Part shown: positions 50,071 through 57,167 of the stretch, piece after piece
Position numbering within the stretch: position 1 is the stretch's first letter
Layout of the letters: each line of letters opens with the position of its first letter
From: Acinetobacter pittii
GTDB lineage: Bacteria > Pseudomonadota > Gammaproteobacteria > Pseudomonadales > Moraxellaceae
Reading direction: 5' to 3'
Assembly (NCBI RefSeq): GCF_034064985.1
Contig: NZ_CP139249.1
Location: 496,001 to 560,000, forward strand
DNA: 64,000 bases
Notes under the pieces: generated by a model
What the model saw: only the letters and a program-made list of their open reading frames with translations
What the model was told of the DNA's origin: nothing
Database searches by the model: none
Translations under genes and position numbers: made by a program

Positions 50071-51696
50071 TTACATAAATCCTTCAAGTGGCAGCCATGA
50101 AAGAAATTTCATGCCTGCTTTTTGCCACCATTTCATCTCAGGTTCCTGTCTATAAATTACAGGACCATTCGGAGTTTCTTGCTGCCAATAAATATGGTTA
50201 TTAGTGTCGAGCTTTAATTTATAAGCATACTTATTCAAATTTTCATCCATTGTATGGTGAATCGTCTTAGCCAGCGATGGGCTATCTAAAATCACACCAA
50301 TTTCAGTATTTAAGTAAGCTGAGCGCGGATCAAAGTTAAATGAACCAATAAAAACCTGCTCATCTAATGCCATCAGTTTAGTATGCAAACTTGATCGGCT
50401 TAGCCCTTTCATATTTACTTTAGCTTTAGTGGCAAGCTCATCTGTATTTTTATTTAAATCTCTTTTATCTGGTGTTGGTAAAAATTCATAAAGTTGTACG
50501 CCGTTTTTAAGCAATTCTTTACGGTATTTTCCATAAAAGGCATGTACAACAGCAACGTCATTCGCCTTAAAAGAATTCGTTAAAACTCGAACTTCAACAC
50601 CCTCTTTAGCAAGCGTGCCTAAAATTTTGGCACCTTGTTTCTCAGGAATAAAATAAGCTGAGATTAAATCAACGTTACTTTCTGGTTTTTCCAAATGATT
50701 AATTAATTGGAAGTTGAGGTGTTCTTCCTTCTTAGCTTTTGATTTGATTTTATCGGGCGAGTCTTTTACAACTTCTGCTTTTACCCAATCGAATTGAATA
50801 TTGCGATTTAACCATTGATCAAATGCATGAGATTTTGACGTTAAGTTTAGAAAGTTTTGAACGGTAGCTTGTTGGTAGTGCGCTTCAAGCTGCTCTTTTA
50901 ATCCTTCATAGCGTAATCGGTGTTGCTCAGGACTTACAATACTTTGAACTGAATATGCATATTCATGATTCCAGTAATCATCAAACGAATTTACGATATC
51001 ATCGACAGCAGCACCTACCAACATTACATCGACATCAGAAAACTGATAGCTATCGCTTACATTGTAATATTGATTGGTCATGTTGCGCCCGCCAATAAGG
51101 GCAACCTCATTGTCGGCAATAAAGCTTTTATTGTGCATACGACGATTAATACGTTTTAGATCAAGCACCATATCCATCGCACGATATTTGCGGAAACGAT
51201 AGGGATTAAAAAGCTTAACTTCAATATTTTTATGCTGAGAAAGGGCTAGTAAAATCCCTTCCATTTTTTTTGCATTATTGTCATCAATAAGAAGTCGGAC
51301 TTTTACACCTCGATCAGCTGCACGAATAATAGCGTGCAACGCTAAAGCACCAACTTTGTCATTATCCCAAATGTAATACTGTAAATCTAAAGTCTTTTCG
51401 GCTTTATCAATTAATCTGAGTCGGGCAGCTAGGGCCTCCAATGGATCATTTAGAACATGGAAACCCGTTAACTTAGGATTTTGTTGACGTAAAGGTGTAA
51501 TAATTTTGGCAAGTGAAGTCTCAGAAGTATCAATATCCTTGGCATATTGCACAGGCTCAACACCATGTTTTGGCAGAGTACTACATCCTGTCAAACCCAC
51601 AGCAAAACTTGAACATAGGACTATAGAGGCTTTTATCAAAAAGCCTTTAGCTTGTTGATTCGTTTGAAGCTGTTTGGAATGAAAGGATTGTGCCAT
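50071..51696 (-). CDS. Phospholipase D / cardiolipin synthase-like lipoprotein
   Basis: A 541-residue PLD-superfamily protein with two HKD motifs: HNKSFIADNEVALIGGRN in the first half and HTKLMALDEQVFIGSFNFDPRS in the second. It has an N-terminal signal and a lipobox (GLTGC, lipidation at C38), so it is likely an envelope lipoprotein. It resembles ClsC-type cardiolipin synthases and the lipoprotein PLDs reported in Acinetobacter. Which reaction it performs (phosphatidyl transfer or hydrolysis) cannot be read here. Confidence 0.88.
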   Translation of the reverse strand: MAQSFHSKQLQTNQQAKGFLIKASIVLCSSFAVGLTGCSTLPKHGVEPVQYAKDIDTSETSLAKIITPLRQQNPKLTGFHVLNDPLEALAARLRLIDKAEKTLDLQYYIWDNDKVGALALHAIIRAADRGVKVRLLIDDNNAKKMEGILLALSQHKNIEVKLFNPYRFRKYRAMDMVLDLKRINRRMHNKSFIADNEVALIGGRNMTNQYYNVSDSYQFSDVDVMLVGAAVDDIVNSFDDYWNHEYAYSVQSIVSPEQHRLRYEGLKEQLEAHYQQATVQNFLNLTSKSHAFDQWLNRNIQFDWVKAEVVKDSPDKIKSKAKKEEHLNFQLINHLEKPESNVDLISAYFIPEKQGAKILGTLAKEGVEVRVLTNSFKANDVAVVHAFYGKYRKELLKNGVQLYEFLPTPDKRDLNKNTDELATKAKVNMKGLSRSSLHTKLMALDEQVFIGSFNFDPRSAYLNTEIGVILDSPSLAKTIHHTMDENLNKYAYKLKLDTNNHIYWQQETPNGPVIYRQEPEMKWWQKAGMKFLSWLPLEGFM

Positions 51697-52862: not shown

Positions 52863-53342
52863 TTATGGAATAACGATAATGGCAACACGTCGGTTAATTG
52901 CACGATTTTCATTGGTTGTATTTGGAACATAAGGTTGTGTTGAACCACGACCAATCACATAAATATTTTCTTTTTTGAATCCGCGAGCTAAGAAAAGGTT
53001 TGCTACACTTTGTGCACGTTCTTCAGATAGCTTCTGATTATAGGTAGCATCACCAACATCATCAGTGTGACCAACAATCTTTAATTTATTCAGATCATAT
53101 TTATTCAATTGATTGGCTAGACGTACTAACTCAGCTTCATGACTTTGTTTTAACTCTGCATTATTAAAGTCAAATAACAAACGTTCTGGTAAACCTAAAG
53201 TCCATCCCTCATCAGTAAGAACGAAACCTTCTTTTTTGAGCAATTTTACTTGACGATATTTTAATGGTCCAAAACTCAGGCACCCTGCAAGAGTAATGCA
53301 TAGCAATGCAATAAAGGAGAGTTTTAAAGATCTTGTATTCAT
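52863..53342 (-). CDS. OmpA-like lipoprotein, YfiB type
   Basis: A 159-residue outer-membrane lipoprotein: signal peptide, lipobox LAGC (lipidation at C21), a linker of about 25 residues, then an OmpA/Pal-like peptidoglycan-binding domain. The domain holds LLFDFNNAELKQSHEAELVRLANQL, KIVGHTDDVGDATYNQKLSEERAQSVANLFLARGF and NRAINRRVAIIV. Size and design match YfiB of Pseudomonas, which sequesters YfiR at the outer membrane. It is the third gene of the operon, 14 bases after the GGDEF gene, which supports this reading. Confidence 0.85.
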   Translation of the reverse strand: MNTRSLKLSFIALLCITLAGCLSFGPLKYRQVKLLKKEGFVLTDEGWTLGLPERLLFDFNNAELKQSHEAELVRLANQLNKYDLNKLKIVGHTDDVGDATYNQKLSEERAQSVANLFLARGFKKENIYVIGRGSTQPYVPNTTNENRAINRRVAIIVIP

Positions 53343-53356
53343 AGATTAGCCTAAAT

Positions 53357-54580
53357 TTATTTTTCAGGTTTATAGATAAACCAGTGTTCATCCGAATTTT
53401 TAGCCTTATACATTGCTTGATCTGCTTGCATAATGAAATCTTCGGGGCTAGATGCAAATTGTGATAAAGCAATACCTACACTAAAACTGAAGTAAATCGT
53501 TTGACCATTCAGATGCAAAGGTTCTTTACAGCTTTCGAGTAAATTTTCAGCAATAGATATTAAATGATCAGCATGACTAATGGAATGCAAAATGACAGCA
53601 AATTCGTCGCCACCTAACCGAGCAATAAAATCTTGATGACGTAGACGAGTTTGCAGTCGATTCGCCATTTCTTTTAAAACTTTATCTCCAGCTAAATGGC
53701 CAAATTGGTCATTAATCGACTTGAAGTTGTTGTTATCTATAAATAATAAAGCAGACTTATTGTCGAAACCTTTATCTTCAAACATGTCTAAAAGTATTTG
53801 ATAAAAATAATGTCTATTAGGCAATAAGGTAAGCTGGTCGTGATGAGCCTGAAAGGATAATTTACGATTTTCCTTTTGTAGCTGATTATCCCATATCTGA
53901 ATTTCTTCAAGTAACTCGTTAAAAACGGTATTTAAATCTTGAAATTCTTTAATTCGATTATAAGGGAAACGAAGATTATAAGCTTTTTGTTCACTTACAA
54001 TTTGAGCAATATTAGTAAGTGGATAAATAGCCTGCATAATTTGACGATACGTTAAGTTTACTGACCACCACAAAGCGCAAACAATAAACAACATCGCTAT
54101 CGCAAGCCCGACCATAATCATTTTGAGGAACTGCAATATTTTTTCAGAACTACCAAAAAGTGTGAGTTCACCTACATTTTGTTCATGGTGATAAATTGTA
54201 AGATGAACAGGCTCATTTAAAAACCAATGATCAAACCAGCCTTCTAAAATTGACGTTTGACTTGATAATTTAAAACTTTGGGCAATTAAATGATGTTCAG
54301 AATCATAAATATGAATAGTACGAATTGAATGGTCATTCGTATACTCATTTAAAATTTGCTCTATGGTAATTTTATCATTAAACACCACAGCGGGCTGGAT
54401 ACGCTCTAATAGCGTATGGCTAAGCAATTGCAAATTTTGTTTAGCGTAAGTTTCCATTGTAAAAACAGAAATTGATACAAACGTAAAAGAGCAAATAAAA
54501 AAGGTGATAGCAAAAATAGTAAATTGAGATTTTCTAAATAATGCATGCAGTGAAGTGGATTGATACAACTTTGATATCAT
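53357..54580 (-). CDS. Membrane diguanylate cyclase, YfiN type
   Basis: A 407-residue protein. It has membrane segment 1 (about 20-42), a periplasmic CHASE8-like sensor (43-150), membrane segment 2 (152-172), a HAMP-like linker, and a GGDEF domain (about 240-405). The active site GGDEF is intact at 323-327, and the product-inhibition site RHQD (314-317) lies exactly five residues before it, so it should make c-di-GMP with feedback inhibition. The layout equals YfiN/TpbB of Pseudomonas and DgcN of E. coli. The TAAGGAT ribosome site is strong. It starts 5 bases after the YfiR-like gene. Confidence 0.9.
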   Translation of the reverse strand: MISKLYQSTSLHALFRKSQFTIFAITFFICSFTFVSISVFTMETYAKQNLQLLSHTLLERIQPAVVFNDKITIEQILNEYTNDHSIRTIHIYDSEHHLIAQSFKLSSQTSILEGWFDHWFLNEPVHLTIYHHEQNVGELTLFGSSEKILQFLKMIMVGLAIAMLFIVCALWWSVNLTYRQIMQAIYPLTNIAQIVSEQKAYNLRFPYNRIKEFQDLNTVFNELLEEIQIWDNQLQKENRKLSFQAHHDQLTLLPNRHYFYQILLDMFEDKGFDNKSALLFIDNNNFKSINDQFGHLAGDKVLKEMANRLQTRLRHQDFIARLGGDEFAVILHSISHADHLISIAENLLESCKEPLHLNGQTIYFSFSVGIALSQFASSPEDFIMQADQAMYKAKNSDEHWFIYKPEK

Positions 54581-54585
54581 TATCC

Positions 54586-55089
54586 TTACTCCGCATTCTT
54601 AGCCAAGAGTAATACTCTCGGATCAATATGAACTTTGGAGTGACTTAAAGCGTCTAAGTTAACTTTAAAGGTAGTGTAATTATTCTGATTATATAAACAA
54701 AAGATACTTCCTATTTCGCACTCTGGATTATTAATGCTTAAAGAAAGTAAAGAATGATAAGGATAATTTTGAATAAGATTCTGTTGTTGCTGGGGAGACG
54801 TAGTAGAAAAATAAACAGCCTGACAATGTGATCGAGCAAAATCTTTCGCATTTACAGTTTGAACACGATAATTATAAGACATTTGCTGGATATAAGATTG
54901 AAAAGTAGATGTGATTGAAGGGTTATCAATAACACAAAGAGTAGGCGTGTTTACATTCTCCCATTTACTGTAGCTTAGAATAGATAAAGTAAGCACATAG
55001 AAGTTATGTTTTGAATTGGCATAGCAAGGCGCACTCGTAGCAAACACTACAAGTATGCAAACAAATACTTTTTTAGCGAACTGCCACAT
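54586..55089 (-). CDS. Periplasmic YfiR-like (DUF4154) repressor of the cyclase
   Basis: A 167-residue protein with a signal peptide (cleavage after about residue 24, PCYANS). It fits the YfiR/DUF4154 fold: ILSYSKWENVNTPTLCVID near the start, then CQAVYFST, and KVNLDALSHSKVHIDPRVLLLAK at the end. The four mature cysteines C52, C89, C124 and C131 have spacings 37 and 7, close to the two disulfide pairs of P. aeruginosa YfiR (C71-C110 and C145-C152). It is the first gene of the operon; in Pseudomonas YfiR binds and holds YfiN inactive. Similarity is low, so the call rests on fold, cysteines and operon order. Confidence 0.75.
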   Translation of the reverse strand: MWQFAKKVFVCILVVFATSAPCYANSKHNFYVLTLSILSYSKWENVNTPTLCVIDNPSITSTFQSYIQQMSYNYRVQTVNAKDFARSHCQAVYFSTTSPQQQQNLIQNYPYHSLLSLSINNPECEIGSIFCLYNQNNYTTFKVNLDALSHSKVHIDPRVLLLAKNAE

Positions 55090-55228
55090 GATGAGTTAAT
55101 GCCAAACTATTGCACGAATAATCTATTCTACATGAAGTTGATAACGTAAAAAAAGTTTAATATCTCATCTAAAAGTGACCAAAAAGCCTAAAAAGTAGAC
55201 AAGTGATAATATTAAATGAAAAAAGGGG

Positions 55229-55256
55229 TTGCAAAGGGGATGAGATGGTCTATAAT
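55229..55256 (+). promoter_or_regulatory. rRNA operon promoter, copy 2
   Basis: TTGCAA and TATAAT are 16 bases apart, as in copy 1. The spacer differs by one base (G at 55239 against A at 22791), and upstream sequence is unrelated apart from its A-rich character. Confidence 0.75.
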
Positions 55257-55630
55257 GCACATCCATCGGCGGTGATGTAGATAGAAACTTGTTGAAAAAC
55301 AGTTACTTGTGATTAGATTGGTTGCTTTAAGTGATGAATTTGATGGTAAGTTGGTTTTGAGAATAAGTTTTAAAAATATCGAAATTACCTGTTGACTTTT
55401 AAGAGATTAAGAGTAATATAGCCGACCTAGCTTGCTGGTGACGAACCAGGAAGAAGATCATTAAGAGAATTGAAGAACAACTTGTGTGGATTTTTACTGA
55501 TTGATTAATCGAAATAATTTTCATTGATTGATTGGTTTAAATTACTCGAAGTTTATTTGAGCGAAATTTAAGTCAGTAATTGATGAGCCAGAATTGGCAC
55601 CTTGTCTTTAATAAGGTGCAAAATGATTTT

Positions 55631-57167
<1,537 letters not shown>

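Follow-up and report, generated by a model that had tools for sequence, protein, structure and literature searches.

In Pseudomonas aeruginosa, the periplasmic repressor, the membrane-bound diguanylate cyclase and the outer-membrane lipoprotein of the YfiBNR system are encoded in the order yfiR-yfiN-yfiB. PMC3375315 counts 99 complete conserved operons of this type and places the binding of YfiR on YfiN at the motif AAVVF of the cyclase. The P. aeruginosa YfiN (PA1120, TpbB) carries D273 and N351 in place of the arginines of the secondary I-site, and according to PMC3838380 its product did not inhibit it over the range examined. The residues of P. aeruginosa YfiB involved in activation, in YfiR contact and in peptidoglycan binding are named in PMC4887326, as are the two cysteine pairs of YfiR, C71-C110 and C145-C152, with a spacing of 39 and 7. 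Another known counterpart is the YfiR-DgcN-YfiB set of Escherichia coli; among 14 control genomes the YfiR and YfiN models were over cut-off only in E. coli, and the YfiB model matched E. coli and Caulobacter, one of the two over cut-off.

The window is the whole 64,000-nucleotide stretch of Acinetobacter pittii DNA that was analysed, and the following features on its minus strand are discussed below.

54586-55089, minus strand: yfiR, 167 aa; periplasmic repressor with a signal-like N-terminus (NCBIfam NF053586, Pfam DUF4154, match to YfiR in the PDB, predicted fold)
53357-54580, minus strand: yfiN (dgcN), 407 aa; inner-membrane diguanylate cyclase (NCBIfam NF007423, Pfam CHASE8 and GGDEF)
54380-54391, minus strand: codons for AVVF (residues 64-67) of YfiN, corresponding to AAVVF, the motif at which YfiR docks in P. 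aeruginosa
52863-53342, minus strand: yfiB, 159 aa; outer-membrane lipoprotein with an OmpA/Pal-type peptidoglycan-binding domain (NCBIfam NF053585, Pfam OmpA)

The trio very probably represents a complete YfiBNR (YfiR-DgcN-YfiB) operon that would work as a repressor-cyclase-activator switch, with a probability of roughly 0.93, the regulation being assigned by analogy with P. aeruginosa. An earlier reading made from the sequence alone had proposed a module of this type, and curated profiles, matches to solved structures, gene order and individual residues all back it. The operon shares with P. aeruginosa YfiBNR three equivalent genes, the YfiR fold and its four cysteines, the AVVF docking motif, the YfiB activation residues and an RxxD motif accompanied by a degenerate secondary I-site, but differs in that region II of the YfiB-YfiR interface is replaced. 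Sequence identity to the P. aeruginosa proteins was 37/132 for YfiR, 63/152 for YfiB and 75/167 for the GGDEF segment of YfiN. The operon is an ordinary member of a long-known system that is common in Acinetobacter.

The three genes lie head to tail with intergenic gaps of 5 and 14 bases in the list of open reading frames, so the tight minus-strand arrangement described in the sequence-only reading was borne out in both coordinates and gaps. The order yfiR-yfiN-yfiB was identical in 26/26 loci of named relatives; these loci were retrieved by searching with peptides from the window YfiR, which makes them close relatives. Because all three proteins scored above their equivalog cut-offs and the order was the same in all of these relatives, the association of the three genes is not a matter of chance. 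The closest named relative of the window YfiR was that of A. pittii ANC 4050 at 99% identity, in a search that may omit the records nearest to the window; the host looks like a member of the A. calcoaceticus-baumannii complex. Scans with promoter and terminator consensus sequences did no better than on shuffled sequence, with 14 promoter matches against 12.0 expected and 1 terminator match against 1.2 expected.

The identity of YfiR was established from both sequence and predicted structure. The sequence-only reading had suggested a profile search of the 167-aa protein against DUF4154/YfiR and a structural comparison with YfiR, and both gave matches. The NCBIfam equivalog NF053586 was matched with 159.4 bits (cut-off 85, E 5.6e-47), Pfam DUF4154 (YfiR/HmsC-like) with E 6.5e-24 and the sequence of the solved YfiR in the PDB with E 1.3e-12. 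The structure predicted from 56 aligned sequences (pLDDT 85, pTM 0.73) had P. aeruginosa YfiR chains as all of its best 15 PDB matches, with TM scores to the target of 0.69-0.77. The expectation that a simple search might leave this protein as hypothetical was mistaken, as Pfam DUF4154 and NCBIfam both name YfiR, and for the same reason the idea of an orphan or cryptic protein was rejected. YfiR has six cysteines, of which C11 and C22 fall inside the N-terminal signal-like stretch and C52, C89, C124 and C131 belong to the mature protein. The spacing of 37 and 7 in the mature protein, likened to that of YfiR in the earlier reading, does mirror the 39 and 7 of P. aeruginosa. All four mature cysteines were invariant in the alignment of 67/67 Acinetobacter YfiR proteins. 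The window YfiR is accordingly described as a DUF4154 protein that is predicted to be secreted and whose two pairs of cysteines are predicted to form disulfides. A table in PMC12691633 credits an A. baumannii yfiR with transcriptional regulation of the YfiRNB operon; the window YfiR is more aptly called a periplasmic repressor. The numbering of the A. baumannii yfiR missense variant published in that paper gave no clean fit when placed on the window YfiR.

For these and the following residue comparisons, Acinetobacter proteins were aligned with the P. aeruginosa segments from the PDB matches. The alignments held 67 of 68 collected YfiR, 61 of 62 YfiB and 69 of 71 YfiN proteins, rows with less than 80% of the length of the window protein having been dropped and open reading frames running off a locus end excluded from the collection; conservation counts from these rows are not independent because the relatives are closely related.

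YfiN matched the NCBIfam equivalog for DgcN/YfiN, NF007423, with 471.9 bits against a cut-off of 325, the model covering residues 9-394. Its Pfam domains were CHASE8 and GGDEF, and the GGDEF domain of TpbB/YfiN in the PDB was matched with E 1.7e-37. Two hydrophobic stretches (18-43 and 147-178) flank a presumably periplasmic segment, and the motifs RHQD and GGDEF lie at 314 and 323. The GGDEF sequence was intact in the window protein and in 62/69 Acinetobacter YfiN, and DEF was present in 69/69. YfiN thus combines a predicted periplasmic sensor with a GGDEF domain that retains its predicted catalytic residues. The predicted structure (pLDDT 82, pTM 0.52) matched GGDEF structures including that of P. 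aeruginosa YfiN. For the HAMP domain expected between the membrane and the GGDEF domain, the Pfam scan listed no match at E values up to 10; helices were predicted at 146-198 and 211-246.

The RxxD motif was found in the window YfiN and in 58/69 Acinetobacter YfiN. At the arginine positions of the secondary I-site, the window protein has D269 and N346, matching D273 and N351 of P. aeruginosa. With those arginines missing, just as they are in the P. aeruginosa enzyme that lacks product inhibition, the RHQD of this YfiN should not be taken for a functioning brake. Of the earlier description of an intact GGDEF domain plus an I-site, the GGDEF and RxxD motifs therefore stand, but the secondary site lacks its arginines. 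Among the 11/69 proteins without RxxD, six (L087, L103, L110, L111, L112 and L116) have proline where the arginine of the primary I-site would stand, and these six retain the YfiR-docking motif.

The sensor domain of the window YfiN has AVVF at residues 64-67, which is the predicted docking motif for YfiR. The position of Phe67 held F in all YfiN that have a YfiR partner (67/67), and both orphans (2/2) of the same alignment had L or S there. In a third orphan, from genome G177, the docking motif was absent; this protein is 49% identical to that of G012. No YfiR match was found in any of the three genomes with an orphan YfiN, of which G044 was rated 91% complete. As the G012 and G177 proteins may share one loss, the cases of motif loss amount to at least two independent events and are few in number. 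YfiN homologues without yfiR had been reported in 2012 to be missing the proposed YfiR-binding residues (PMC3375315), and the pattern seen here therefore confirms a known one within a single genus, as a small natural experiment in which a YfiN without its YfiR partner is also without the docking motif. The orphan YfiN-like cyclases lie at L082:5533-6750, L083:6076-7425 and L123:1486-2727, all without the docking Phe motif. The orphan yfiN of L082 still adjoins a 16S gene, and no yfiR remnant was found between the two.

The third protein had been described as an OmpA-like lipoprotein, and this description held: it matched Pfam OmpA and passed the NCBIfam equivalog YfiB model NF053585 (159.9 bits against a cut-off of 128), and its lipobox-like LAGC ends at the lipid Cys21, which was present in 60/61 Acinetobacter YfiB. 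The solved YfiB in the PDB was matched with E 2.5e-30. An identity as Pal or YiaD was considered and rejected (YiaD 120 bits against 175, Pal 64 against 125). Counterparts of P. aeruginosa Q39, G47, F48, W55, D102, G105 and R117 were present in 61/61 proteins and that of L43 in 59/61, so that YfiB is a predicted lipoprotein with the N-terminal activation residues. Of the peptidoglycan residues, N67 was replaced by F in 57/61 proteins (F59 in the window), and the position of N68 held N in 39, D in 21 and G in 1 of 61 (N60 in the window). Most residues of the Pal-type peptidoglycan site, D102, G105 and R117 among them, are kept, and peptidoglycan binding is predicted.

The surfaces predicted to join YfiB and YfiR were less uniform. 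In region I, the YfiB residues E45 and F57 were changed to K in 50/61 and to L in 61/61 proteins, and the YfiR counterparts R60 and H177 were changed to K in 54/67 and to D in 64/67. The counterparts of YfiB E45 and YfiR H177, both of region I, were K and D together in 47/59 paired loci. In region II, the contacts observed in the crystal of P. aeruginosa YfiB with YfiR were not preserved in the 59 paired Acinetobacter loci: the E163-R96 pair was K-K in 47/59, the S146-E98 pair was E-V in 43/59 and the R171-E157 pair was variable. We take the region II contacts to be details of one species' crystal rather than a criterion for the family.

Across 149 Acinetobacter genomes, the NCBIfam models were over cut-off for YfiR in 102, YfiN in 103 and YfiB in 101. 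All three genes were over cut-off in 99/149 genomes and none in 44/149, the latter including G012, whose YfiN-like protein stays under the cut-off, and G042, whose yfiR is broken. YfiN alone was found in one genome (G044), and YfiB alone in two (G019 and G121), both highly fragmented assemblies in which yfiN is cut short by the end of a contig. Three genomes (G141, G144 and G156) had YfiR and YfiN without a YfiB over cut-off, so that some lineages can do without YfiB; the yfiB of G141 is broken into two open reading frames. Pairs of yfiR and yfiN at L085:4800-6610 and L086:4910-6723 had no yfiB detected within the fetched stretch, and the L085 pair adjoins genes that, from a reading of their open reading frames, resemble a two-component regulator and a sensor kinase. 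Decaying copies were seen at L084:6459-6707, where yfiR is broken and neither yfiN nor yfiB was detected within the sequence retrieved, and at L087:4474-5042, with yfiB as two open reading frames.

By analogy with P. aeruginosa, from which repression, release and the stress trigger are taken over, free YfiN in the membrane would produce c-di-GMP, and periplasmic YfiR would hold it off by docking at AVVF of the sensor domain. A disturbance of the envelope or peptidoglycan would activate YfiB in the outer membrane, which would capture YfiR and free YfiN. Failure of the YfiR disulfides may offer a second, YfiB-independent route to release.

That second route might instead be the principal one, with the YfiR disulfides as the real sensor of a YfiR-YfiN redox switch and yfiB as a passenger that matters little or not at all in this lineage. 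The invariance of the four cysteines, the loss of the P. aeruginosa-type region II interface and the two loci where a yfiR-yfiN pair had no yfiB detected nearby would suit such a switch, but the YfiB counterparts of the activation and YfiR-anchoring residues Q39, G47, F48 and W55 are invariant and the three genes occur together over cut-off in two-thirds of the genomes, which makes it unlikely. A different three-gene system resembling YfiBNR is far less probable still, whether of the HmsCDE or TOL_0243 kind or made up of a Pal/YiaD-type lipoprotein next to a cyclase unrelated to YfiN. DUF4154 is also termed YfiR/HmsC-like, which would leave room for such a system; the YfiR, YfiN and YfiB models were, however, well over their own cut-offs, and the TOL_0243 model NF053591 and the histidine-kinase variant model reached 24.2 bits against a cut-off of 125 and 58 against 194, respectively. 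The YfiBNR switch is retained as the reading of the operon. Points that speak against it are the replaced region II contacts, the changes in region I and at the peptidoglycan positions N67 and N68, the lack of a listed HAMP match in YfiN, and the genomes with YfiR and YfiN but no YfiB over cut-off.

The output of the switch was considered in relation to A. baumannii ATCC 17978, in which eleven GGDEF/EAL genes were found and tested (PMC7005169, also the source of the phenotypes below). Overproduction of the GGDEF protein A1S_2986 gave the most pronounced effect on surface motility and the mutant was somewhat more motile; biofilm in liquid culture was not significantly changed by its overproduction, a significant rise being reported only with A1S_2506 and A1S_3296. 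The effects of A1S_2986 extended to the matrix: in A. baumannii it promoted a component that binds Congo red, and in S. typhimurium and V. cholerae it promoted colonies of matrix-type morphology. A1S_2987 is an OmpA-like putative lipoprotein precursor and A1S_2989 a putative phospholipase D (PMC7667040), the latter named PLD in PMC5346588 too. In the window, yfiN is followed downstream by yfiB, a metallophosphoesterase gene and a PLD gene, and the gene-number order of A1S_2986, A1S_2987 and A1S_2989 parallels window yfiN, yfiB and the PLD gene. It is probable, from gene order and product names rather than sequence, that A1S_2986 is the A. baumannii counterpart of this yfiN and, by gene order, that the window PLD-like gene is the counterpart of A1S_2989. 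A1S_3296, the principal cyclase for biofilm in ATCC 17978, was also considered as the counterpart, since its neighbour A1S_3297 has been annotated as a putative outer membrane protein. It was rejected, as the PLD and OmpA-like lipoprotein neighbours suit A1S_2986 and, of the ten GGDEF loci found in the source genome, this one alone has a YfiB-like gene within the flanks of roughly 1.5 kb that were retrieved.

For Acinetobacter, surface motility is thus better supported as the probable output than biofilm, which the sequence-only reading had proposed. Whether the operon is a YfiBNR system with mainly surface motility and not biofilm as its output is evenly balanced. The parallel neighbours and the motility phenotype of A1S_2986, with its lack of a significant effect on liquid-culture biofilm, argue for it; against it, A1S_2986 was identified by gene order and product names, its overproduction beside native YfiR may mask a role in biofilm, and the same study saw the Congo red-binding matrix component and matrix-type colonies. 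A more tentative extension is a re-wired switch, in which YfiB would grip YfiR mainly by an N-terminal clamp since the second contact region is replaced, and released YfiN would chiefly drive flagella-independent surface motility, not biofilm, A1S_2986 being the effector of an unrecognised envelope-stress circuit.

The main text of PMC7005169 contains no word beginning Yfi, and that paper therefore did not link A1S_2986 to YfiR or YfiB; a regulator and a signal for A1S_2986 go unnamed there. The main text of a 2026 network study (PMC13243610) contains no YfiN, YfiB or YfiR, and none of the literature matches listed, among which subscription journals were mostly uncovered, dealt with what YfiBNR does in Acinetobacter. 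The main addition made here is the joining of the operon to A1S_2986 from gene order, through which a published motility cyclase would gain a likely regulator, its likely signal being stress on the envelope or the redox state of the periplasm.

The PLD-like protein is encoded at 50071-51696 of the window, two genes downstream of yfiB. On the other side, the window yfiR is divergent from an rRNA operon, its 16S gene at 55630-57167 being separated from yfiR by the stretch 55090-55629. The more diverged loci L085, L086, L090, L091, L092, L095 and L098 had no 16S gene in at least 1.9 kb upstream. Among the 26 named loci, 12 reach a contig end 109-429 bases upstream of yfiR, and a 16S gene, whole or partial, lies upstream of yfiR in the remaining 14; listed loci with a 16S neighbour are L056, L062-L064, L072-L073, L076, L078-L079 and L081.
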